From the NCBI GenBank assembly GCA_018829205.1, contig JAHJUE010000022.1:124001-188000 (forward strand): a stretch of DNA of 64,000 nt, read 5' to 3'. Below the pieces are notes generated by a model. It was not told the origin of the DNA, searched no databases, and saw nothing but the letters and a program-made list of their open reading frames with translations. This stretch comes from Bacteroidota bacterium. Its GTDB lineage: Bacteria; Bacteroidota; Ignavibacteria; Ignavibacteriales; Melioribacteraceae. Positions 48,603 to 60,007 of the stretch are shown one piece after another. A program made the position numbers and the translations under genes. How positions within the stretch are numbered: the first letter of the stretch is position 1; each line of letters begins with the position of its first letter.

Positions 48603-48690
<88 letters not shown>

Positions 48691-48755
48691 GGAAAGTAGG
48701 TTGTAAATATAGATATTACTTTCGTAAGTAGAAAATAATTTTAAATAATTTATTG

Positions 48756-48843
48756 CGGAAAGAGAGAGATTCGAACTCTCGGAGCGCCAATGACGCTCAA
48801 CGGTTTTCGAGACCGCCCCGTTCAACCACTCCGGCATCTTTCC
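48756..48843 (-). tRNA. tRNA-Ser (anticodon CGA)
   Basis: An 88-base class II tRNA. The acceptor stem is GGAAAGA/TCTTTCC with discriminator G, the anticodon loop CTCGAAA sits between GCGGT and ACCGT, the variable arm is long (GAGCGTCATTGGCGCTC), and the T-arm is GAGAGTTCGAATCTCTC. CCA is not encoded. Reads UCG. It is upstream of the GGA isoacceptor with a 65-base spacer. Confidence 0.95.
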
Positions 48844-48865: not shown

Positions 48866-48989
48866 TTGAAATAATTCTAAACTTGCATTTTTTAACAGCT
48901 CGGAATAAAATTTTAATTATTAAAAAACGTGAAAGTAAGTACAAATTTATTATTTTTGCATAACAATTTTTAATAGAGAGAATATTTTC

Positions 48990-49424
48990 ATGAAATTAAA
49001 CATGTTTATACTTGTCATCTACTTTTCAACTTTCATTTTCGGTCAAGGTGAAAAAGCGAATTGGACAAGGGTCGATTTTGTATATTCGAGCCGCATGTAT
49101 ATTGATGTTAACAGCATACAAAATGTTAACGATACCTTGGTTTCCGTTTGGACAATGGAAGAAAATTTTCCCCCTCTTTCGATTGAGTCGGTTAGCGGAA
49201 AAATTTATAAAACAAAAACATTTTATACATTTAACAAAGCATTGTTACGATATAGTTTTTTTGAAATTATATATTATGATGAAAAGGACAATGTACTGAA
49301 TTCATTCAGCTACAGAAGAAATACGGGACACCAGGATTATCAGTATAATTACCCGGTTATAGAAGGTTCGATAGAAGAAGCGATATTGTTAAAGTGTAAT
49401 CAAATTTTGAAGGGAATTGAGTGA
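48990..49424 (+). CDS. Small secreted hypothetical protein
   Basis: A 144-residue protein with a Sec signal (MKLNMFILVIYFSTFIFGQ). The mature part contains WTRVDFVYSSRMYIDVNSIQ and FEIIYYDEKDNVLNS, a compact beta-rich domain reminiscent of the surface-adhesin-E-like proteins (W..V..... .YID..SI). I am not certain of this assignment. Its stop overlaps the GTG start of the SET-domain gene by 4 bases, so the two are translated together. Confidence 0.65.
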   Translation: MKLNMFILVIYFSTFIFGQGEKANWTRVDFVYSSRMYIDVNSIQNVNDTLVSVWTMEENFPPLSIESVSGKIYKTKTFYTFNKALLRYSFFEIIYYDEKDNVLNSFSYRRNTGHQDYQYNYPVIEGSIEEAILLKCNQILKGIE

Positions 49425-49822
49425 AAAAGTTTGACCGGAATTGGGAAGAATCTGTAATAGTAAAAAATTCAAAAATACACGGCAAGGGTATTTTCGCAGG
49501 GAGCGTTATCCCCGAAGATGAACTTGTTATGGTAATTCGAGGCGAAGTGATTTCCGGAAAAGAATGCGAAAGGCGCGAAGAAGAAGATAACAATGTTTAT
49601 ATTTTCTGGAACGGAAGATATTATATTGATACGGTTAACACCGATAAAATAAAATATATTAACCACGACTGCAACCCGAACTGTTATGTAGACGACAGGG
49701 ATAAAGAATCATTAAACCTTATTTCACTTAGAGAAATAATTAAAGGCGAAGAAATTACGATGGATTACGGCTACGAAGAAATTTATGAAAACTGTTCATG
49801 CCATACTTGCACGGCAAAATAA
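49421..49822 (+). CDS. SET-domain protein (possible lysine methyltransferase)
   Basis: A 133-residue protein that is essentially a single SET domain. It shows SKIHGKGIFAG, the SAM-binding INHDCNPNCYV (N81-H82), GEEITMDYGYE with the catalytic-type Y116, and a post-SET CSCHTC zinc motif (C125, C127, C130). The start is GTG at 49421, overlapping the previous stop. SET proteins in bacteria are scattered and usually lack known targets. Small forms of this type occur in several phyla, so horizontal origin is likely but base composition here is not different. Target protein unknown. Confidence 0.85.
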   Translation: MKKFDRNWEESVIVKNSKIHGKGIFAGSVIPEDELVMVIRGEVISGKECERREEEDNNVYIFWNGRYYIDTVNTDKIKYINHDCNPNCYVDDRDKESLNLISLREIIKGEEITMDYGYEEIYENCSCHTCTAK

Positions 49823-49830
49823 ATTTCTAA

Positions 49831-50547
49831 TTAAAATAAATCGTTGATTATTTTCGTTCCGCCCAGCTGATCCATAAATCGTATTATTCTATCTCTTCTA
49901 TTAATGAGTCTGGCGGATGGATTTTTAACCGAATATCTAATTGGACTCGGGAGTACGGCCGCCAATAATGCGGCTTCGCTTTTGTTCAAGCTTTTTGCCG
50001 GTTTTCTATAAAAACTATTTGCGGCGGCTTCTGCGCCGAATGTATCTCTACCGAATTCCGCAATATTTAAATAAACTTCTATTATTCTTTTTTTACTCCA
50101 CAGAATTTCAACAAGCATCGTCAATTCGGCTTCTACGGCTTTTCTTATAATATTTTTATCACCCGATAAAAAAAGATTCTTAACAACCTGCTGCGAAATT
50201 GTGCTGGCTCCCCTTACCCTTCTTCCTCTTTCCATTTCATCAAAAGCTTTTTCAATCTGCTCCAAATCAAATCCATAATGCAGTAGGAATTTTTGGTCTT
50301 CGGAAGCTATAACTGCCAGAATAAGATTTTTCGAAATGTTTTCCAAACCTACCCATTTCTGTTTTTGCGCATTATTATAAAAAGGTTTCTCAAAAGAGAT
50401 TTCGGATTTGGATAACATAAAAGCGGAAATCGGCGGATTGATAAATCTAAAAATTAAAATAATTACGGAAACAAAAACGGTGAATACAACCGCTAATGCA
50501 ATTATAAATTTTATAAAGTTAAGGAATAGCTGTTTGACTTTTTTCAT
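49831..50547 (-). CDS. mtgA: Monofunctional peptidoglycan transglycosylase
   Basis: A 238-residue GT51 enzyme with one N-terminal membrane helix (about 12-35). The catalytic region is clear: VIASEDQKFLLHYGFD (E83), RRVRGASTISQQVVKNLF, KRIIEVYLNIAEFG and EAALLAAVLPSP. It polymerises lipid II glycan strands at the outer face of the inner membrane. It lies 14 bases downstream of the channel gene and appears to be the last gene of the ergothioneine operon. It ends 8 bases from the convergent SET-domain gene. Confidence 0.93.
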   Translation of the reverse strand: MKKVKQLFLNFIKFIIALAVVFTVFVSVIILIFRFINPPISAFMLSKSEISFEKPFYNNAQKQKWVGLENISKNLILAVIASEDQKFLLHYGFDLEQIEKAFDEMERGRRVRGASTISQQVVKNLFLSGDKNIIRKAVEAELTMLVEILWSKKRIIEVYLNIAEFGRDTFGAEAAANSFYRKPAKSLNKSEAALLAAVLPSPIRYSVKNPSARLINRRDRIIRFMDQLGGTKIINDLF

Positions 50548-50561
50548 TAGGACTAATTTAA

Positions 50562-51833
50562 TTAAATTATTGCAGTATCTTCTCTAAATTTTGCTTTTTT
50601 TTCTATTTGTGAGAGGATTTCTTTATACTTGGAAATAACATAGTCAAATGTACTTTTATTTAACGAGTATAAATCACAGTAAGTCAAAGACCGCACAGTA
50701 GCAGTACGCGGTTTATTAGCAAAAATTGCTATCTCGCCGAAAAAGTCTCCGTCCTTTAAAACAGCTAACTGCTTATTCTCTTTATTTAAAACTTCCAGTT
50801 CCCCTTTCACAACAAAATACATTTCTTTACCGGTATCTCCTTCGCTAAAAACACAATCACCGGGAGTAAGAACAACCGGTTTTAAATGCATGGATATTTC
50901 TCTAATAAAATTCGGGTCGGCGTCTTTAAATAAAGGAATTTTTTCAATTACTTCTTTCTTTAAATGAAGAGATACTTCACTTTGAAGACTAACGGGAAGG
51001 CCTTTTAAGAAATCGGATTCATCATAACCCATGCGCTGCCGCCACATATAGGTATAATAATCTCTGATCCGGTGCTGCAGATCGAAAGGAAGTTTTCTAA
51101 ATTGCAGAAGCGCGGTAAGTTTTTCTAAATTTTCAAGATATTGAGTTTTCGCCGGATCCCTTTTAGAAAGAATATTTGCTACATTACCAATTACGTATCC
51201 GTACATACCTACACCGAGTATTTCCGTAAATATGGTGTACAGCATTTGAAGATTATTATTAGGAGTTATGTCGCCGTAGCCTACCGTTGTTAAAGTTGTA
51301 ATACACCAGTATAATGAAGAAATATAGTTAGTCGCGAAATCCGATGTAATATCAATTCCTTTAAGCGCCAGCCATCCGCAGCTTATCCAGTGAGCAAAAT
51401 GAGTTACCCAGAAAATAAAAAATACGATTGACAAAATATTTGCGTACTGGATTCCTTTCTGTTTCCAGGATTTCATAAAATGCTGCACTTTAAAAAGCTT
51501 TACAATACGCAGCAGCTGGAATATGGAATGGTTAAAAATTAAAGCGAGCGGCAGAGCTGCAATAAAATCTATTATAAACCAGGTTTGAAAATACTTTTTC
51601 GGGGTCAGGTTGTCTTCAAACAAGTATATTCTTTTATATGTTTTAAACATATATATGTTTAAAAGAATATCTAATGTAAAAACGATGGTAGTAATTGTAT
51701 GAAAATAATTATAGAATATTTCGCTTTTTAAATTGAACAATATATCTATAGGAATTAATATAGCGGAAATGCTTGCGGTTACCGTAATAAAAATATTCCA
51801 CGCTAAATTTACGGCAGAATTATGGTAAAACAT
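50562..51833 (-). CDS. Cyclic-nucleotide-gated potassium channel (SthK-like)
   Basis: A 423-residue channel of the eukaryote-like CNG/HCN architecture. Helices S1-S4 span residues 10-120, with S4 carrying only a few charges (LLRIVKLFK). S5, pore and S6 follow (135-225) with selectivity filter TVGYGD (183-188), predicting K+ selectivity. The C-linker (HRIRDYYTYMWRQRMGYDE) leads to a cyclic-nucleotide domain with GEIAIFANKPRTATVRS (E367, R376, T377 at the phosphate cassette). The size is as in the bacterial channel SthK. It is co-directional with egtD and mtgA, with gaps of 22 and 14 bases. cAMP gating is inferred from the cassette. Confidence 0.9.
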   Translation of the reverse strand: MFYHNSAVNLAWNIFITVTASISAILIPIDILFNLKSEIFYNYFHTITTIVFTLDILLNIYMFKTYKRIYLFEDNLTPKKYFQTWFIIDFIAALPLALIFNHSIFQLLRIVKLFKVQHFMKSWKQKGIQYANILSIVFFIFWVTHFAHWISCGWLALKGIDITSDFATNYISSLYWCITTLTTVGYGDITPNNNLQMLYTIFTEILGVGMYGYVIGNVANILSKRDPAKTQYLENLEKLTALLQFRKLPFDLQHRIRDYYTYMWRQRMGYDESDFLKGLPVSLQSEVSLHLKKEVIEKIPLFKDADPNFIREISMHLKPVVLTPGDCVFSEGDTGKEMYFVVKGELEVLNKENKQLAVLKDGDFFGEIAIFANKPRTATVRSLTYCDLYSLNKSTFDYVISKYKEILSQIEKKAKFREDTAII

Positions 51834-51855
51834 TTATTTTCCACAATTAATAAGT

Positions 51856-52800
51856 TTACTTAACCGAAAGATAAAGAACGCTGAAGTACTTATTTTTATC
51901 GATCCAAATTTTCGATATTTCGAAATAATCTTCAGCAAGTTCCGCGAAACCGCTAAAGGTATATTTATGAGAATACTCTGTTAAAATAGTTTCGCTCTTT
52001 TTAAAATAAAACTTTCTTTCATTAATTGTAACTGTTTGTTCTACTTCCGAGATTAAATGCATCTCTATTCTTTTTTCGTCCTCGTTATAAAAAGCAAGAT
52101 GACTGAACTTACTAATCTCAAAATCAGCCCCGTATTCTCTATTTAACCTTTCAAGTAAATTCAGGTTAAATTCGGCGGTAACATTTTCTTTATCGTTGTA
52201 GGCGGCTTCAATAATATCTTTATCTTTATGAAGATCGATTCCAATAAGTAATCCCCCTTCGCGTCCGCATGTTTCGGCAATTAATTTTAAGAATGCTTTC
52301 GCCTCATCGTTTTTAAAATTGCCTATAGTAGAGCCGGGGAAATAAGTAATTTTATGTTTAACTTTTTTGTGTATTTCAGGCAGTATATATGGTTTTGTAT
52401 AATCCGCTGAAATAGGAATAATTTCTAAGCCGGGATATTCCTCAATTAATCTTTCGGTTGTTTTAAAAAGATGATCTTCAGAAATATCGATAGGAATATA
52501 GGCGGAGAGATTATTCAAATTATCAAGGAGCAGGCGGGTTTTCATGCTGCTCCCGCTTCCAAATTCAATAAATATCGTGTTTTCCTTAAAAACCGAAACT
52601 ATATCATCAATATTATTTTTCATAATCATTGATTCGGTTCTTGTAGGATAATACTCATCTAATTCGCAAATAAGATCAAAAAGCTTTGAGCCTTTCTCAT
52701 CATAAAATAATTTGCTCGGGAGCATCTTTTGTTTTTGGCTTAATCCGTTTATAATTTCGTCCAATAACTCCAATTGTATTTTATCTAGTTCTAATTCCAT
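51856..52800 (-). CDS. egtD: L-histidine N-alpha-methyltransferase EgtD
   Basis: A 314-residue SAM-dependent enzyme that trimethylates histidine to hercynine, the first step of ergothioneine synthesis. Landmarks are SKLFDLICELDEYYPTRTE, the SAM loop FIEFGSGSSMKTRLLLD, VKHKITYFPGSTIGNF and LLIGIDLHKDKDII, followed by YNDKENVTAEFNLNLLERLN and LISEVEQTVTI. Length is normal for EgtD. It lies 9 bases downstream of egtB. Together these suffice for the hercynine-to-sulfoxide part of the pathway; no separate egtC or egtE gene is in view. Confidence 0.93.
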   Translation of the reverse strand: MELELDKIQLELLDEIINGLSQKQKMLPSKLFYDEKGSKLFDLICELDEYYPTRTESMIMKNNIDDIVSVFKENTIFIEFGSGSSMKTRLLLDNLNNLSAYIPIDISEDHLFKTTERLIEEYPGLEIIPISADYTKPYILPEIHKKVKHKITYFPGSTIGNFKNDEAKAFLKLIAETCGREGGLLIGIDLHKDKDIIEAAYNDKENVTAEFNLNLLERLNREYGADFEISKFSHLAFYNEDEKRIEMHLISEVEQTVTINERKFYFKKSETILTEYSHKYTFSGFAELAEDYFEISKIWIDKNKYFSVLYLSVK

Positions 52801-52809
52801 AACATGCTC

Positions 52810-54123
52810 CTAATTATTTTTAGCCAATCTTATCCCGGAAAACTGCCACCTTGCGTTATGAGGGAAAAAATTTCTATATGTATTTCTTATGTGCGATTTG
52901 GAAGTGGCGCATGAACCGCCCCTAAGAACAATTTGTCCCGACATAAATTTGCCGTTATATTCACCTATTGCTCCCGGGGGAATTTTATAACCAGGATAAG
53001 GAGCATAGTCGCTTCTAGTCCATTCCCATACATCTCCGAACATCTGACCTAATTTCCCGGCATTTTCCGGGTTTAAAGGTACCGGGTGCAGCTTTCCGCT
53101 ATCAACAAAATTTCCTTCAACCAATAGATTTTGAGACGCAATTTCCCATTCGGATTCTGTTGGTAATCTGCATCCGGACCATTGTGAAAATGCTTCAGCC
53201 TCATAAAAGCTGATATGCGTAACTGGTTCAGATAAAATAACTTCTCTGAACCCGCTTAATGTAAAATTGTACCATTTCCCGTCCCTCTTTTCCCAATATA
53301 ACGGTGCTTTCCATTTTTCTGTTTCTACTGCGGCAATCCCATTGGAAAGCCAAAATTCAGGTTTTGAATATCCCCCGTCCTCTATAAATTCTATATACTC
53401 TTTATTTGTTGTCAGTCGCGAAGCAAGCGTAAAATTTGGCACATAGGTTTTGTGAACCGGCTTCTCATTATCATAAAAGAACTTTTTTCCTTTGTATCCT
53501 ATTTCATAAATTCCTTCATTAATATTGATCCAGTTAAGTGCTCCCGGATCATTCGTTTCATATTCATTTCTTTTCTTGAAAACCGGGTAGAGCGGATTTA
53601 TTGACAGCATATGTTTTACATCCGTTAGTATTAATTCCTGATGCTGCTGCTCGTGATTCAAACCGATATCAATTGTAACAGCGACGGCGGCAATTTCTTT
53701 ATCATCCGCCGTCTCCAGGAAACGCTGCATATTTTCATCAACGTATTCTCTGTATTCCATAACTTCTTTAACAGTAGGACGCGACAATAAACCTCTGTGA
53801 GGACGGGAAAATCGCTCCCCTACTTGTATATAATAGGAATTAAACAAATAGTTGAATTGCGGATTAATTGATTTATAGTTTTTGTACACTTCCTTTAGTA
53901 CAAAGGCTTCCCAAAACCAGGTAGTGTGAGCCAGATGCCATTTAACGGGACTAGCGTCAGGCATTGATTGAATTACAAAATCCTCGGTATTTAATGTTTC
54001 GCAGAGTTTTATTGAAAATATGCGCACTTCTTTATAGCGTAAAATCAATTTTTCTCTGGTAAGATTATTATTATATACGATATCCTTTTTTACGGCACTT
54101 TCTGCTGTAGTATTTAAAGACAA
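52810..54123 (-). CDS. egtB: Ergothioneine biosynthesis sulfoxide synthase EgtB
   Basis: A 437-residue non-heme iron enzyme joining a sulfur donor to hercynine. The DinB-like N-terminal domain shows SPVKWHLAHTTWFWEAF and IGLNHEQQHQELILTDVKHML, giving likely iron ligands H66, H157 and H161. The C-terminal FGE-sulfatase domain has FTLASRLTTNKEYIEFI, CRLPTESEWEIA, GDVWEWTRSDYAPYPGY and VLRGGSCATSKSHIRNTYRNFF. The start codon is TTG at 54121-54123 with GAGGTT eight bases ahead. The sulfur donor (cysteine or gamma-glutamylcysteine) cannot be read with certainty. A 99-base gap separates it from the transporter. Confidence 0.93.
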   Translation of the reverse strand: MSLNTTAESAVKKDIVYNNNLTREKLILRYKEVRIFSIKLCETLNTEDFVIQSMPDASPVKWHLAHTTWFWEAFVLKEVYKNYKSINPQFNYLFNSYYIQVGERFSRPHRGLLSRPTVKEVMEYREYVDENMQRFLETADDKEIAAVAVTIDIGLNHEQQHQELILTDVKHMLSINPLYPVFKKRNEYETNDPGALNWININEGIYEIGYKGKKFFYDNEKPVHKTYVPNFTLASRLTTNKEYIEFIEDGGYSKPEFWLSNGIAAVETEKWKAPLYWEKRDGKWYNFTLSGFREVILSEPVTHISFYEAEAFSQWSGCRLPTESEWEIASQNLLVEGNFVDSGKLHPVPLNPENAGKLGQMFGDVWEWTRSDYAPYPGYKIPPGAIGEYNGKFMSGQIVLRGGSCATSKSHIRNTYRNFFPHNARWQFSGIRLAKNN

Positions 54124-54222
54124 ATTTTAACCTCTTTTTTTTATTTAATTAACGGCAGGATGTTCTAAAGTAATAAAGATATTTATAAAATGCCAATTAA
54201 CCGATTAAAGAAAATATGTATG

Positions 54223-55713
54223 TCATTTATCAATTCTTAGCCCCTTTGGTACAATTATTTTTTCGCTTAAATCAAAAAGATACTGAACAATTATTGCCAG
54301 CAACGCTGCCGGAACAGCGCCTTGAAGTATCAATGATATACTATCTAAACGAATGCCTGTAAGAATCGGCTGCCCGAATCCCCCCGCGCCGATTAATGCT
54401 CCTAATGTCGCGGTGCCGACGTTAATAACCGCCGAAGTTTTTATACCGGCTAAAATTGAACGTGAGGCCAAAGGCAGCTCAATTTTCCTCAATATTTCTT
54501 TGCCAGATAATCCAAGCACTACCGCGCTTTCTCTTATTTGAACCGGGATTTCATTTAATCCGGAATATGTATTTCTGACTATAGGCAGCAGACTGTATAA
54601 AAATAAAGCTACTATGGCCGGTTCCGCGCCTATTCCGAAAAAAGGAATCATAAATACTAATATTGCTAACGAAGGGATTGTCTGAATAATTCCCACAACG
54701 CTTAAAATTATATTGCCTGTTTTTTTATTTTTGAAAGCTATTACTCCAAGCGGAACAGCAAATAATATTGCTCCGAAAAGTGAAATCAAAACCAATGTTA
54801 AATGATCTTTTGTGTTCTTCAATAATTCATTTAAAATGGAAACCTGCTGTACATGCAATTCAATATTAAATTCTTTGCTAAGAAACTCGGATGCGGTTTG
54901 AAATTCAGGTTTGCCGTTAACTTTTACATCCGAGTTCATATTTATCATTTCTTCTTCATTAATTCTGTCTTCCAGGCGACGAATTAAACTAATCGTATTC
55001 GGCGATTTTTGTTTTAAGTCTGATCTGTATAAAATTACAGCGTTGTACAAAGGGAAATAATTAAGATCATCCTTCAGAACTTTCAGATTATAATATTTTA
55101 TTTCGGCATCCGTTGAATACAGATCAACTACATCTATTGAACCGTTTTCTAGTCCTCTATAAGCAAGATCATGATCAATGCCTGCAACGTTATCCGGCAG
55201 AAGATTATATTTTTTCTGCAGACCCGGCCATCCGTCATTCCTATTCATAAATTCATTAGTGAAGCCGAATTTCAATCCCTTGTATTCGGCTAAATCCGAT
55301 ATGTTTTTAATTCCTAATTCGTCTGCTAATTTTGTATTCATTCCGATTGCATAGGTATTATTGAAGCCCAAAGGATTAGAAATTTCGACTGAATATTTCT
55401 TCAGCGAATTTTTTAAGGAATTAAAATCTTTAATGCTTTCTCCGTTAAGTAATTCTTGTATAATTGTGCCCGTATATTCCGGATAAAGATCAATATCACC
55501 CTTTAGTAATGCGCTCCAGAGAATTCTTGTTCCGCCAAGTTCTTTTTTATGTTCTATATTTACGTTTGCCGATTTAGCGAATTGAGTTATTATTTCGCCT
55601 AGAATAACGGATTCCGTAAATTTTTTAGAGCCGACATTTATTTGGCTGCTGTATTTTTCAGTACAGCCGGCAGCGGTTAAACATATCAATATGTAAATCC
55701 ATAATATTTTCAT
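54223..55713 (-). CDS. Fused substrate-binding protein/permease of betaine-type ABC importer (EgtU-like candidate)
   Basis: A 496-residue fusion. It starts as a lipoprotein (AAGC lipobox, C17). Residues 25-290 form an OpuAC/ProX-like binding domain (INVGSKKFTESVILGEI, HKKELGGTRILWSALLKGDIDLYPEYTGT). Residues 300-490 form a five-to-six-helix permease with EAA loop ESAVVLGLSGKEILRKIELPLASRS. Known fused forms such as EgtU and OpuABC place the permease first; here the order is reversed. It overlaps its ATPase gene by 4 bases and lies next to egtB/egtD. Possible substrates are ergothioneine, hercynine, or glycine betaine/choline; the egt context favours the first two. Confidence 0.8.
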   Translation of the reverse strand: MKILWIYILICLTAAGCTEKYSSQINVGSKKFTESVILGEIITQFAKSANVNIEHKKELGGTRILWSALLKGDIDLYPEYTGTIIQELLNGESIKDFNSLKNSLKKYSVEISNPLGFNNTYAIGMNTKLADELGIKNISDLAEYKGLKFGFTNEFMNRNDGWPGLQKKYNLLPDNVAGIDHDLAYRGLENGSIDVVDLYSTDAEIKYYNLKVLKDDLNYFPLYNAVILYRSDLKQKSPNTISLIRRLEDRINEEEMINMNSDVKVNGKPEFQTASEFLSKEFNIELHVQQVSILNELLKNTKDHLTLVLISLFGAILFAVPLGVIAFKNKKTGNIILSVVGIIQTIPSLAILVFMIPFFGIGAEPAIVALFLYSLLPIVRNTYSGLNEIPVQIRESAVVLGLSGKEILRKIELPLASRSILAGIKTSAVINVGTATLGALIGAGGFGQPILTGIRLDSISLILQGAVPAALLAIIVQYLFDLSEKIIVPKGLRIDK

Positions 55714-56447
55714 TTAAAATCCAGATAAGTTCTTTGCGCATTGACGAACTTTTTAACAAAATCATTTTTTGGATTTTCGATTAGGTTTTTAGGCGAATCA
55801 TTCTGAACAATACTGCCTTCGGCCATTAAAATTATTTTATCACCGAAATAAACCGCCTCGGCCAAATCATGAGTAACCATTACAACGGTTTTCCCAAGTT
55901 TGTTAAATATTTCTTTTAAATCTTTCTGTAGATCAAATCTAATTAATGGATCAAGTGCGCCAAGAGGTTCGTCGAGAAGTAAAATTTGAGGATCAAGCAT
56001 TAAAGCGCGCATTAAACTAATACGCTGTCTCTGCCCTCCGGATAGCTGAGTTGGATATTTATCCAGCAGTACGTTATCAAGTCCGGTAAGTTCACTTAAT
56101 TGTTTTACACGCGCGTCAATTTCATTCTGCTTCCATTTATAATACTTAGCGGCTAATACAATATTATCATATCCGGAAAGATGCGGAAATAGTCCGCCTT
56201 CCTGAATAACGTAGCCTATATTTTTCCTTATGCCGTTTATATTTTTTTTCGTAACCGGTACGGAATTAATTTCGGTCTTACCGTTACTGGGTTTAATGAG
56301 ACCGGCGATAATTCTTATTAAGGTTGATTTACCGCAGCCGCTTGGACCGATAAGTATGCTTGTCGATTCCGATTCAATTTCAAGAGTAATATTATTTAAT
56401 ACACCTGTGCCGTTATAATGTTTTGATATATTTTCCAGTTTAATCAT
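55710..56447 (-). CDS. ABC transporter ATPase, betaine/ergothioneine type
   Basis: A 245-residue ATPase with Walker A GPSGCGKSTL, Q-loop VIQEGGLF, signature LSGGQRQRISLMRAL, Walker B LLLDEPLGALD and H-loop VMVTHDLAEA, as in ProV/OpuCA/EgtV enzymes. It lacks the C-terminal CBS domains seen in many OpuA/ProV ATPases that sense osmolarity, which fits a transporter not regulated by osmotic strength. The gene is coupled to the fused permease by an ATGA overlap and is 18 bases downstream of the M14 peptidase gene. Confidence 0.9.
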   Translation of the reverse strand: MIKLENISKHYNGTGVLNNITLEIESESTSILIGPSGCGKSTLIRIIAGLIKPSNGKTEINSVPVTKKNINGIRKNIGYVIQEGGLFPHLSGYDNIVLAAKYYKWKQNEIDARVKQLSELTGLDNVLLDKYPTQLSGGQRQRISLMRALMLDPQILLLDEPLGALDPLIRFDLQKDLKEIFNKLGKTVVMVTHDLAEAVYFGDKIILMAEGSIVQNDSPKNLIENPKNDFVKKFVNAQRTYLDFK

Positions 56448-56465
56448 ACGGTTTGAACATACGTT

Positions 56466-58226
56466 TTATTCTACAACTCTTATTACAGGGTAAAAATTAT
56501 GATTAGCGTCATAGTATTTAGTCCGTTCATAAAAGAAATTTAATCTAGCCCAGGGATTATTCGCAAAAGCTGAATCGGAATTTACTTTTTCCAAAAATTC
56601 ATTTCTTAATACCGGATCATTTTCGAACATTTTTTTTGCTATCGGCTCCATCGAATACGTTTCAAAATACTCGGTTCTCTCAAATATTTGGTTGAAGAAA
56701 CCCCAGTATACAAATGAATCCCTGCTTTTCGGCTCAAGCAGGTATAAAATAATTCCAAGCCGTCTTTGAGCCGGATTAATAATAACTGTACCTTCGGGAA
56801 CGGTAATCGAATCGGTGATTACATCATAGGAATATTTAGCTGTAAATCTTCCTTCGTAAGGTTTGGAAGCGAATGATACATCCTTGAATTTATATTTCTC
56901 CACTTTAAATGACGCTGATTTTTCAAGCACATCCATTTCTACCCCATGGATGTTTAGTATTTCGATAATCTGTGTCCATTCTTTGGGAATCAAATAATAT
57001 TTAGGGATAGAAACCGAGTCCTTTATATAGGTTTTATTAAAGTACGGGATTTTTATATCAATTTTTTCATCGGAATATTTCTCAACCTTTGTTCCTGTAA
57101 TTTCACTATAAACAGAATCCTTTCTGAATCCTTTAAATTCCATAAAATCATGTTCATCTAACGCGCCGAAAAGAATTGGGAAATATTTTTTATCAATCGA
57201 ATAGTTTTTAATTACCTCTTCATCGGCTTGTTTATTAATATTTATAATTTCTTCCGGTTCATTATTAGCTAGTTCAAGTATTCCCTCAATTACCGCTTTA
57301 GTAGAATATACTCTTTCTTTATATGGTTTTAACATATGCGTTTCAATTGTAACTTCGGGGCGGTTATGAGCAGAAGCGAATCCGGTCGATAATTTCGGGC
57401 TTGATACGAAATCATAAATTCCGCTTTCAAGATTATCATCAAATGCAACATACGGGCAAATCAAAAAGCCTTTACTTTCCGCCCCGTTAATTATTGCCGG
57501 AATAAATTTGTTTCTTACCCAGTTTCTTGTAACCAAAGGAAGGTTCTGATTTCTATCTACAATGTATGTAACCGTATACTGATAATCGGCGCCGTTGGTT
57601 GTATGAGTATCAATATAGATGTCCGGAATCCATTCATTATATAATTTAAGCATAGCTCTCATTTCTGGAGCGTCGGCTTTCAAATAATCTCTGTTAAGAT
57701 TAAGATTCTGCGACGTTGTTCTCCACCCCATTATCTCCGGACCGTTTTGATTTATTCGTCCATAGGGACTTCTTCTTTCGTGGCCGTCGACATTAAATAC
57801 CGGTACAATTATGAATATCACATTATCCAGCAAATGTTCTTTTTCTTTTGTTACAAGCATTTCTCTAAATAATAACATAACAGCTTCTTTGCCTTCAATT
57901 TCCCCGGCATGAATTCCATTCTGGACAAATATTACGGGTTTGCCGACTTTCTTTGCAAGCTCCGGCGTAAATGCTTTATCCTTGCTTACGATTAAATATT
58001 TCAGTTCTCTGCCTTGCGGCGAAATGCCGAATGTTTTCATTGCAACGGATTCAAAATCATCGGCGAATTGTCGAAAGTATTTTATCGAATTATAATAATC
58101 GGGGCTTCCTTTAAAATCGGTTTTTTCAAAATGCGTAATCCATTTTTCATCAAATTTAATCTGGGAATTAATATCAGCATAAAATAAAACCATACAGACA
58201 AACAGAATCATAGATGTTTTTTTCAT
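56466..58226 (-). CDS. Secreted M14-family zinc carboxypeptidase
   Basis: A 586-residue protein with a Sec signal (ends near DINS). Zinc ligands are H106 and E109 in NGIHAGEIEGKEA and H208 in YIDTHTT. The likely catalytic Glu lies in EVTIETHMLKPY. NVDGHERRSPYGRINQNGP is the substrate-site segment of the M14 family. The C-terminal 180 residues form a beta-rich domain seen in this family in Bacteroidota. It likely trims peptides in the periplasm. It is the first gene of the minus-strand unit that includes the ABC importer and egtB/egtD; a functional link is not obvious. Confidence 0.85.
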   Translation of the reverse strand: MKKTSMILFVCMVLFYADINSQIKFDEKWITHFEKTDFKGSPDYYNSIKYFRQFADDFESVAMKTFGISPQGRELKYLIVSKDKAFTPELAKKVGKPVIFVQNGIHAGEIEGKEAVMLLFREMLVTKEKEHLLDNVIFIIVPVFNVDGHERRSPYGRINQNGPEIMGWRTTSQNLNLNRDYLKADAPEMRAMLKLYNEWIPDIYIDTHTTNGADYQYTVTYIVDRNQNLPLVTRNWVRNKFIPAIINGAESKGFLICPYVAFDDNLESGIYDFVSSPKLSTGFASAHNRPEVTIETHMLKPYKERVYSTKAVIEGILELANNEPEEIININKQADEEVIKNYSIDKKYFPILFGALDEHDFMEFKGFRKDSVYSEITGTKVEKYSDEKIDIKIPYFNKTYIKDSVSIPKYYLIPKEWTQIIEILNIHGVEMDVLEKSASFKVEKYKFKDVSFASKPYEGRFTAKYSYDVITDSITVPEGTVIINPAQRRLGIILYLLEPKSRDSFVYWGFFNQIFERTEYFETYSMEPIAKKMFENDPVLRNEFLEKVNSDSAFANNPWARLNFFYERTKYYDANHNFYPVIRVVE

Positions 58227-58522
58227 TGTTGTGTTATAGTTTGTTTAGAAAAGTTTATTAGTGTGAAATATAAATCAAATATTTATAATGTTCTAATCAT
58301 AGTATAATTTTTGCATGTTGAGTTAAAAAAATATTTACCGGATTTTTTTTATTCTAAAAAAAATACTTAACTAATTTCTATAAATATTTTTAATTGATTA
58401 CGACGCAAATATTTATTCAAAACAATTATTTAAATTCATCTGCACTATAGTAGTGACTAATAGCTATTATTTTTATATTTTAAGAGCCATTACCAAATCA
58501 CATAAACTGGAAAATTTAATTT
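58227..58522. other. Divergent promoter region between M14 peptidase and NhaC-type antiporter
   Basis: About 300 AT-rich bases without a gene. An inverted repeat CACTATAGTAGTG (58443-58455) lies about 70 bases before the antiporter start and could be a regulator site. I see no convincing -35/-10 pair. Confidence 0.45.
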
Positions 58523-60007
58523 ATGGATAATTTCGGGTTTTGGTCACTCCTCCCTCCCATTGCTGCAATATTCCTTGCAATAAAAACCAGACAAGTATTT
58601 GTTTCTTTAACAGCGGGAATATGGTTCGGCTGGATAATAATTTCAAACGGGAATATTATAACAGGAACTTTTAGTACCATACAGGCGATTGTTGACGTAT
58701 TTAAAGACAGCGGCAACACAAGAACCATTTTATTTACCGGATTTATTGGAGGTTTAATCGCATTGATACAAAGTTCCGGCGGAGTAGAAGGATTTGTTAA
58801 AAAAATAAATTTAAGACTTATTAAAATAGAAAAAGAAAAAAGCGGAAGAAGTAAAACCATTGTTCAGCTGTTTGCGGCTCTTTCGGGTATGATGCTGTTT
58901 GTTGAGTCAAGCATTAGTGTGCTTACCGTGGGAACAGTATTCAGACCGATATTTGATAAATTAAAAATCCCCCGGGAAAAACTCGCGTTTATTGCCGATT
59001 CCATTTCGGCTCCTACATGTATATTAATTCCGTTAAACGCCTGGGGCGCTTATATAATGGGATTGCTTGCGGCTCAGCAGTTCAGCAATCCTTTCCAAAC
59101 CTTACTTCATGCATTTCCATTTAACTTTTATCCCATGTTCGCTCTGCTTATAGTTTTTATAATTATTATTTTCAAAAAAGATTTCGGACCGATGAAAGCG
59201 GCCGAAGAACGTGCGGCAAAAGAAGGAAAGGTATTAAGAGACGGAGCCGAGCCTTTATTGTCGGCTGAAATCACTAAACTTGAAACAAAAGAAAATATAA
59301 CTCCTTCGGCGAAAAATATGCTTATACCTCTTGCCGTTATGGTTTTAATGATGCCGGTTATGCTGATTTATACCGGATGGGAGAACGTTGAAAATATATC
59401 GCGACTTCCGTTTCATTTGCAGGTATTCGAAGCAATTGGCCAGGCATCCGGTTCATCTTCGGTGTTATATTCTGTTTTAATAGCGTTGACTGTTTCAATT
59501 GTAATGTTTTCGATTCAGAAAATCTTCACAATAAAAGAATCCGTTGATTTAATTCTAAAAGGAATAAGCGGCTTAATTCCAATGGCTATACTTATGATTT
59601 TAGCATTCGCTATCGGTAATGTATGCCGGGAATTGGGAACGGGCAATTACACGGCGGAAATTACAAAAGCATGGCTCTCGCCTCATTTTGTTCCGTTTAT
59701 AATTTTTATAACCGCCGCGTTTATTTCATTTTCAACGGGAACTTCGTGGGGAACATTCGCGATAATGATTGCAATTGGAATTCCGATTGCGCAGACAATA
59801 GGCGCTGATATAAGTCTTACAATTGCGGCGGTATTGGGAGGCGGTGTATTCGGCGATCATTGTTCTCCTATTTCAGATACTACAATTATCGCGTCTATGG
59901 CCTCTGCAAGCGATCATATTGATCACGTTAAAACACAGCTGCCATACGCTTTAACGGCGGGACTAATTACCGCTGTTTTATATTTGATATTAGGATTTAT
60001 TGTTTAA
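58523..60007 (+). CDS. NhaC-family Na+/H+ antiporter
   Basis: A 494-residue inner-membrane antiporter with about 11-12 hydrophobic segments. Family markers are IKTRQVFVSLTAGIWFGW at the start, SFSTGTSWGTFAIMIAIGIPIA and LGGGVFGDHCSPISDTTI near the C-terminus, the latter forming the substrate pathway. A charged cytoplasmic loop lies around residues 220-260. It is a monocistronic plus-strand gene between two minus-strand units. NhaC relatives exchange Na+ for H+, or malate/lactate (MleN); the exact exchange is not determined. Confidence 0.9.
   Translation: MDNFGFWSLLPPIAAIFLAIKTRQVFVSLTAGIWFGWIIISNGNIITGTFSTIQAIVDVFKDSGNTRTILFTGFIGGLIALIQSSGGVEGFVKKINLRLIKIEKEKSGRSKTIVQLFAALSGMMLFVESSISVLTVGTVFRPIFDKLKIPREKLAFIADSISAPTCILIPLNAWGAYIMGLLAAQQFSNPFQTLLHAFPFNFYPMFALLIVFIIIIFKKDFGPMKAAEERAAKEGKVLRDGAEPLLSAEITKLETKENITPSAKNMLIPLAVMVLMMPVMLIYTGWENVENISRLPFHLQVFEAIGQASGSSSVLYSVLIALTVSIVMFSIQKIFTIKESVDLILKGISGLIPMAILMILAFAIGNVCRELGTGNYTAEITKAWLSPHFVPFIIFITAAFISFSTGTSWGTFAIMIAIGIPIAQTIGADISLTIAAVLGGGVFGDHCSPISDTTIIASMASASDHIDHVKTQLPYALTAGLITAVLYLILGFIV

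Follow-up and report, generated by a model that had tools for sequence, protein, structure and literature searches.

A SthK-type channel and ergothioneine genes in a probable variable slot upstream of mtgA in a Melioribacteraceae genome

Introduction

Why should the genes of a potassium channel and of a cell wall transglycosylase follow those of ergothioneine synthesis at a distance of few bases? The question is raised by a 64,000-nucleotide stretch of DNA (the window) from a Bacteroidota bacterium of the Melioribacteraceae (Ignavibacteriales; GenBank assembly GCA_018829205.1, contig JAHJUE010000022.1, positions 124,001 to 188,000 of the forward strand). On its minus strand, egtB (hercynine sulfoxide synthase; 52810..54123) lies 9 bp upstream of egtD (histidine N-alpha-methyltransferase; 51856..52800), followed after 22 bp by the gene of a predicted SthK-type cyclic-nucleotide-gated K+ channel (50562..51833) and after another 14 bp by mtgA (monofunctional biosynthetic peptidoglycan transglycosylase; 49831..50547). 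A preliminary description of this DNA had read egtD, channel, and mtgA as one transcript serving a common stress response. Its open reading frames, strand, and gaps are confirmed, and curated family cut-offs and domains bear out the gene identities. The same-strand run also holds transporter genes (54223-56447) and an M14 carboxypeptidase gene that were absent from that description.

We consider it likely that this locus has a variable slot preceding mtgA, that channel and MtgA have become neighbors by locus history, and that the ergothioneine module consists of egtB-egtD together with the transporter. The comparison of relatives suggests that the EgtU-related transporter, and not the channel, is the stronger partner of the ergothioneine genes. 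The case illustrates how an operon that looks orderly may deceive: channel and wall gene are real, yet comparison points to a variable slot.

Gene order around mtgA in relatives

Channel, EgtD, and MtgA genes were searched for in 164 genomes of the window's order, and neighborhoods around them were read; the channel is present in 28 (E≤1e-45), EgtD in 29 (E≤1e-30; called by similarity and not by family cut-off), and MtgA in 95 (E≤1e-32). The window's family (f1) has a recurring frame of a divergent gene, the M14 gene, the slot, mtgA, and convergent SET and adhesin-like genes, with single pieces missing in many genomes. In the window, the upstream border of the slot is an M14 zinc carboxypeptidase (56466..58226, minus strand; PF00246), and the convergent border is a SET-domain protein (49421..49822, plus strand; PF00856) adjoined by a surface-adhesin-E-like protein (48990..49424, plus strand; PF16747 at 23.5 bits, narrowly below its cut-off of 23.7); the positions of all three recur in relatives. 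The divergent border of the block is a Na+/H+ antiporter-family protein (58523..60007, plus strand; PF03553), and relatives have in this place either an antiporter, which adjoins M14 in 8 of them, or an open reading frame of 163 to 165 amino acids. Because this conserved frame includes divergent and convergent genes outside any shared transcript, much of the conserved gene order is probably due to synteny in general.

The contents of the slot vary among relatives: some have nothing in it, others channel or egt genes, and some the two together. We read 28 mtgA loci out of the 57 family genomes with MtgA, mostly chosen for resembling the MtgA of the window. The immediate upstream neighbor of mtgA is the channel in 7 of the 28 (window, G022, G029, G027, G031, G011, G149), M14 in another 7 (G005, G032, G016, G010, G026, G003, G017), egtD in 3 (G002, G123, G124), a 161-residue gene with LysE and M14 further out in 1 (G023), and none of these in 10. 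Slot channels occur in 10 genomes, all of f1, namely these 7 plus G015 and G009, where mtgA lies elsewhere, and G145, where mtgA was not found. EgtD was not found (E≤1e-30) in 6 of these 10 (G015, G027, G031, G011, G145, G149; 80% to 100% complete), and no channel was found in the 3 genomes in which egtBD adjoin mtgA (G002, G123, G124).

Ten order genomes have both channel and EgtD. The two genes are direct neighbors in 4 of these (window, G022, G029, G009), and in 2 of the remaining 6 (G054, G111), a contig end cuts the channel. Among the 18 genomes with both EgtD and MtgA, egtD adjoins mtgA or is parted from it by the channel alone in 6 (window, G022, G029, G002, G123, G124). For a true pair, the yardstick is EgtB, which lies beside EgtD in 21 of 28 EgtD loci read (29 were found in the order, G111 being unread); it was not seen there in G018, G121, G007, G151, and G054, and contig ends make G026 and G029 unscorable. 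The gene order of the preliminary description is conserved in part: egtD-channel-mtgA recurs in G022 and G029, but slot contents vary and the frame includes genes of the opposite strand.

Trees of the slot genes give a similar picture for channel and EgtD. Besides the window, the 35 rows of the channel tree comprise 24 of the other 28 order channels, leaving out the fragments of G088, G111, G117, and G054, and 10 relatives taken from the 20 best named ones. Here the 10 slot channels require 3 label changes compared to 8.9 in shuffles, with 0 of 500 shuffles as low; they form a grade, and none of 200 bootstrap trees unites them in a single clade. The EgtD tree has 32 rows, leaving out G007, G018, G121, G151, and G111, and its 8 slot sequences (including G014 and G009, both without mtgA) require 3 label changes compared to a shuffled mean of 7.3 (0 of 500 as low); many branches are open, and the slot sequences are not one clade. 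Both patterns fit a single arrival with later losses without proving it.

In f1, M14 and mtgA are often paired on one strand, with the convergent SET and adhesin-like genes closing the row, and we propose that modules—a LysE-type gene, a SthK-type channel, the ergothioneine module—came and went between them, with channel and ergothioneine module both sitting in the slot of the window genome. As their families suggest, EgtD would trimethylate histidine to hercynine, EgtB would add the sulfur, and MtgA would polymerize glycan strands. For the transporter, uptake of ergothioneine or a similar histidine betaine for salvage is most likely, and the channel, judged from SthK, probably passes K+ upon binding cAMP or cGMP from the cell's own class III cyclases. 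Channel and MtgA would then not be parts of the ergothioneine pathway.

An EgtU-related transporter as probable partner of the ergothioneine genes

Upstream of egtB lies an ABC transporter subunit (54223..55713, minus strand; 496 residues; PF04069, PF00528) in which a substrate-binding domain (residues 24-279) is followed by a permease (319-490). Its gene is overlapped by 4 bp by that of a ProV-kind ATPase (55710..56447, minus strand; 245 residues; PF00005) whose best model is TIGR01186, at 233.5 bits and under the cut-off of 326.6. A separate ATPase gene next to a substrate-binding domain fused to a permease is the architecture of EgtU importers, and the closest solved domains of the fused protein are those of EgtUC (9o5f, E=1.9e-44).

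In the order, the transporter is present in 10 of 164 genomes (E≤1e-60), and 9 of them have EgtD compared to 1.8 expected (p=4.7e-07); in the tenth (G024), egtB directly follows the transporter at a contig end. The transporter lies directly upstream of egtB in four f1 genomes (window, G022, G002, G024), and in six genomes of another family (f3), it is not near egtBD, which sit elsewhere in the same genomes. A sample of 328 genomes from the phylum gives the same association, with 39 of 40 transporter genomes (E≤1e-40) carrying EgtD compared to 12.4 expected (p=1.2e-21; the exception is G294), whether the match covers the full-length transporter (25 of 26) or no more than the permease (14 of 14). 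Transporter and EgtD are at most 10 kb apart in 15 of these 39 genomes and further apart or on separate contigs in the other 24. The linked gene orders differ, for example, EgtD-EgtB-ATPase-transporter in G352, ATPase-transporter-EgtB-EgtD in G356, and EgtB-EgtD-ATPase-transporter in G424. This association kept through rearrangement is a better argument for a tie between transporter and egt genes than the test figures.

The binding pocket can be compared to EgtU of Streptococcus pneumoniae, whose contact residues are named in PMC9732360 with G244 and the F293/Y337 pair as specificity determinants. In EgtU numbering, K242, T275, T296, N339, Y341, E375, R379, D381, Y419, and Y443 are conserved in the window transporter and in 10 of 10 homologs, and the cage and carboxylate contacts K242, T296, N339, Y341, R379, Y419, Y443, and E375 are all among them. 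The determinants themselves differ, since the window has F32, Y80, and F117 at positions 244, 293, and 337, as do 10 of 10 homologs; they further share a G at 274 and a K at 243 (T in one homolog). Positions 242-244 were placed by the shared GSK motif, as the HMMER alignments begin at residue 48 or 49. Positions 243, 244, 293, and 337 thus read K, F, Y, F in the window and I, G, F, Y in EgtU. On these pocket residues, we reject a close copy of pneumococcal EgtU.

The F, Y, F combination is the type that PMC9732360 describes for the glycine betaine protein AfProX, which would suit an ordinary glycine betaine/choline osmoprotectant importer that came to lie beside egtB by chance. We regard such an importer as rather unlikely: of the 40 transporter genomes in the phylum sample, 39 carry EgtD, with 15 of them linked in differing gene orders. 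The same paper notes that members of other subclusters of network cluster 2 appear without these determinants and calls for tests of their specificity; some of them, in Helicobacter pylori, are said there to import ergothioneine at lower affinity. Judged by its residues, the window transporter is not to be filed as EgtU and probably works like it. Given the co-occurrence with EgtD, ergothioneine or hercynine would be its likeliest ligand.

The window transporter resembles EgtU in its betaine-type substrate-binding domain fused to a permease, its closest solved relative, and most cage and carboxylate residues; it differs in that the substrate-binding domain comes before the permease (after it in pneumococcal EgtU) and in that it sits beside ergothioneine biosynthesis genes. 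Domain order also varies among homologs. All 6 domain-first homologs compared are collinear with the window transporter, and all 9 permease-first homologs read out of 14 (G234, G352, G424, G356, G332, G278, G226, G389, G311; loci L278-L283, L285, L286, L294) show circular permutation of the substrate-binding domain: their residues 15-244 contain the match to residues 295-490 of the window transporter, after which come the matches to its residues 133-289 and, last, 14-148. Five of these nine adjoin egtB or egtD. Circular permutation has been reported among glycine-betaine-binding proteins (PMC2395249). No paper was found naming it together with substrate-binding, glycine betaine, and ABC transporter, and its sole mention in the accessible text of PMC9732360 concerns permuted GFP.

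These findings lead us to the tentative proposal, which may well prove wrong, that an EgtU-related fused importer for a histidine betaine (ergothioneine or hercynine) is present in many Bacteroidota that produce ergothioneine, the window's operon holding one such importer, and that its pocket is unlike that of pneumococcal EgtU, one branch having a circularly permuted substrate-binding domain. One may then ask why organisms that make ergothioneine should need an importer as well. Our literature search, with subscription papers mostly outside its coverage, found neither a report of EgtU-type importers in Bacteroidota producers nor a paper that connects ergothioneine genes with a K+ channel.

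Two side observations concern the surroundings of transporter genes. In the two f3 genomes scanned, G037 (L204:4601-5917) and G060 (L205:7689-8993), a GAF-SpoIIE phosphatase-like gene follows the transporter. A Bacteriovoracales locus (L094:8926-14176) has a distant channel relative one gene away from relatives of the transporter (400 bits) and its ATPase (204 bits), and neither EgtB nor EgtD has a match at this locus.

Transcription and co-occurrence

The genes egtB-egtD-channel-mtgA share a strand, and short gaps free of terminator-like sites separate them. Scanning positions 48900-58400 gave 7 terminator-like sites compared to a shuffled mean of 7.0; two on the minus strand fall within the channel and mtgA genes and none in the 22- or 14-bp gap. 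Sigma-70 sites are fewer than in shuffled sequence (29 compared to a mean of 39.6). The Bacteroidota-type promoter consensus is TTTG, 17-23 nt, TAnnTTTG, and with this consensus, the best score in the 99-bp gap between transporter and egtB is equaled in 178 of 500 mononucleotide shuffles; no such promoter fits into a gap of 22 or 14 bp. Gaps of 9 to 22 bp would make co-transcription of egtB-egtD-channel-mtgA likely, and we regard it as plausible.

That the genes for making ergothioneine, for K+ flux gated by cyclic nucleotides, and for building the wall are co-transcribed because they act together in one stress response seems quite improbable to us. The tight, apparently terminator-free gaps would suit such a unit, as would the order egtD-channel-mtgA in G022 and G029, egtD-channel in G009, and co-occurrence in the order above expectation for channel with EgtD and with the transporter. 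Against it stand the six channel slots without detected EgtD, the three egt-mtgA slots without a channel, and the seven loci in which M14 directly precedes mtgA. Channel and MtgA co-occur in the order at chance level (16 genomes seen compared to 16.2 expected), and EgtD and MtgA in 18 compared to 16.8 expected. In the phylum sample (channel in 12 genomes, EgtD in 102), channel and EgtD show no detectable association (both in 5 genomes compared to 3.7 expected, p=0.3). We also read the neighborhoods of 20 named channel relatives (L077-L096) among 80 loci of the 352 retrieved with alignment A1 (see below); no match to EgtD, EgtB, or MtgA lies within up to 6 open reading frames on each side, some of the contigs being short. 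Given this null result and these relatives, any tie between channel and ergothioneine looks local to the window's group. Within the order, channel and EgtD co-occur modestly, and support for the proposed stress unit is weak.

Several points weigh against a variable slot with the transporter as the true partner. In the order, channel and EgtD occur together in 10 genomes compared to 5.0 expected (p=0.0096; 6 genomes and p=0.14 without the four linked ones), and channel and transporter in 5 compared to 1.7 (p=0.014). All these Fisher tests ignore relatedness. Of the 40 transporter genomes in the phylum sample, 12 belong to one family (f30) and 14 matched by the permease part alone, with EgtD called by similarity. 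Having none of the EgtU specificity residues, the transporter may bind another betaine. The mtgA survey covers just 28 of 57 family loci, and several assemblies are incomplete. Finally, the channel-mtgA adjacency is kept in seven genomes, making a functional tie possible; five of the six other mtgA-adjoining channels are 46% to 59% identical to the window's, and that of G149 falls outside that alignment.

Another reading of this adjacency is that the channel works together with MtgA, perhaps in turgor and growth of the wall, and that ergothioneine has no part in it. Of the 16 order genomes that carry both genes, 7 have the channel as the immediate upstream neighbor of mtgA, six of them with a gap of at most 14 bp. 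In the other nine, the two are apart or on different contigs, in none of the 12 channel genomes outside f1 was the channel seen beside mtgA, SET, or M14 (several contigs being short), and a genome with one of the two genes is no likelier to have the other. We thus give a functional pair a small chance and prefer neighborhood by locus history.

The channel

The channel (423 residues) carries an Ion_trans domain (residues 11-224, 79.2 bits compared to a cut-off of 25) with pore-helix and voltage-sensor-like features, the K+ filter TTVGYGD at 182-188 (alignment A1), a C-linker, and a cyclic-nucleotide-binding domain at 321-402 (cNMP_binding, 77.6 bits compared to a cut-off of 27.5) with FGEIAIFANKPRTATV including the phosphate-binding arginine. 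Within FGEIAIFANKPRTATV, R376 and T377 presumably contact the cyclic nucleotide, as is general for this fold. The best solved relative is SthK, the cAMP-gated K+ channel of Spirochaeta thermophila (e.g., 7rsh; PMC6093708), which aligns over residues 5-418 at 306 bits and is collinear up to residue 418. The two share channel helices, K+ filter, C-linker, cyclic-nucleotide-binding domain, and the R-T phosphate-binding motif, and PMC6093708 describes what the threonine does in SthK. They differ in phylum and gene context.

Searching genome contigs with the channel sequence alone returned zero relatives, and alignment A1 gave 352, of which 80 loci were kept; relatives of the channel are on record from several phyla. 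As the preliminary description had held, the channel is both SthK-like and rare: channels of this kind are uncommon in the order (28 of 164 genomes) and in the phylum sample (12 of 328, E≤1e-60), and among 58 relatives searched (own genome included), 13 have full-length channel relatives and there is one fragment. Its sequence marks the window channel as a good new SthK-type member of a family that is itself already known, and it adds a Bacteroidota protein to a family used in structure work on CNG/HCN gating. The window's genome has 4 class III cyclase domains; at least one is present in 148 of 164 order genomes, so that these cyclases indicate no more than that a ligand could be made.

Two relatives of the channel stand out. 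That of G033 (L041:2139-3410) has LTSFGNQD in its filter region instead of LTTVGYGD, which makes its K+ selectivity doubtful. That of G119, from the window's family, is identical to the channel of L080, which was deposited as Bacteroidetes bacterium.

Enzyme assignments and flanking genes

The enzymes are assigned by curated equivalog models: EgtD (314 residues) scores 381.6 bits on TIGR03438 (cut-off 290.9), EgtB (437 residues, TTG start) 564.8 on TIGR03440 (cut-off 360), and MtgA (238 residues; PF00912) 243.7 on TIGR02070 (cut-off 182.65). EgtD also matches EgtD structures (e.g., 4pim, 177.5 bits), and the closest solved relative of EgtB is Cabther EgtB (8qf6, 6qki, 6o6l) at 477 bits. With 336.4 bits on the SenA model, EgtB stays under the cut-off of 420, and selenoneine synthesis was therefore rejected. 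EgtB and EgtD both agree with known ergothioneine biosynthesis; the window genome differs in having no EgtE match over the cut-off (best 67.2 bits compared to 400; EgtA and EgtC were not searched for). The EgtE model also gives matches under the cut-off in 14 of 14 control genomes, so that such matches are no evidence of EgtE.

More distant EgtD-like genes (L075, L076, L219, L220; 40% to 42% identical) have no EgtB seen beside them and possibly belong to another pathway. Past the convergent end of the block, two tRNA-Ser genes (GGA and CGA) lie at 48603-48843.

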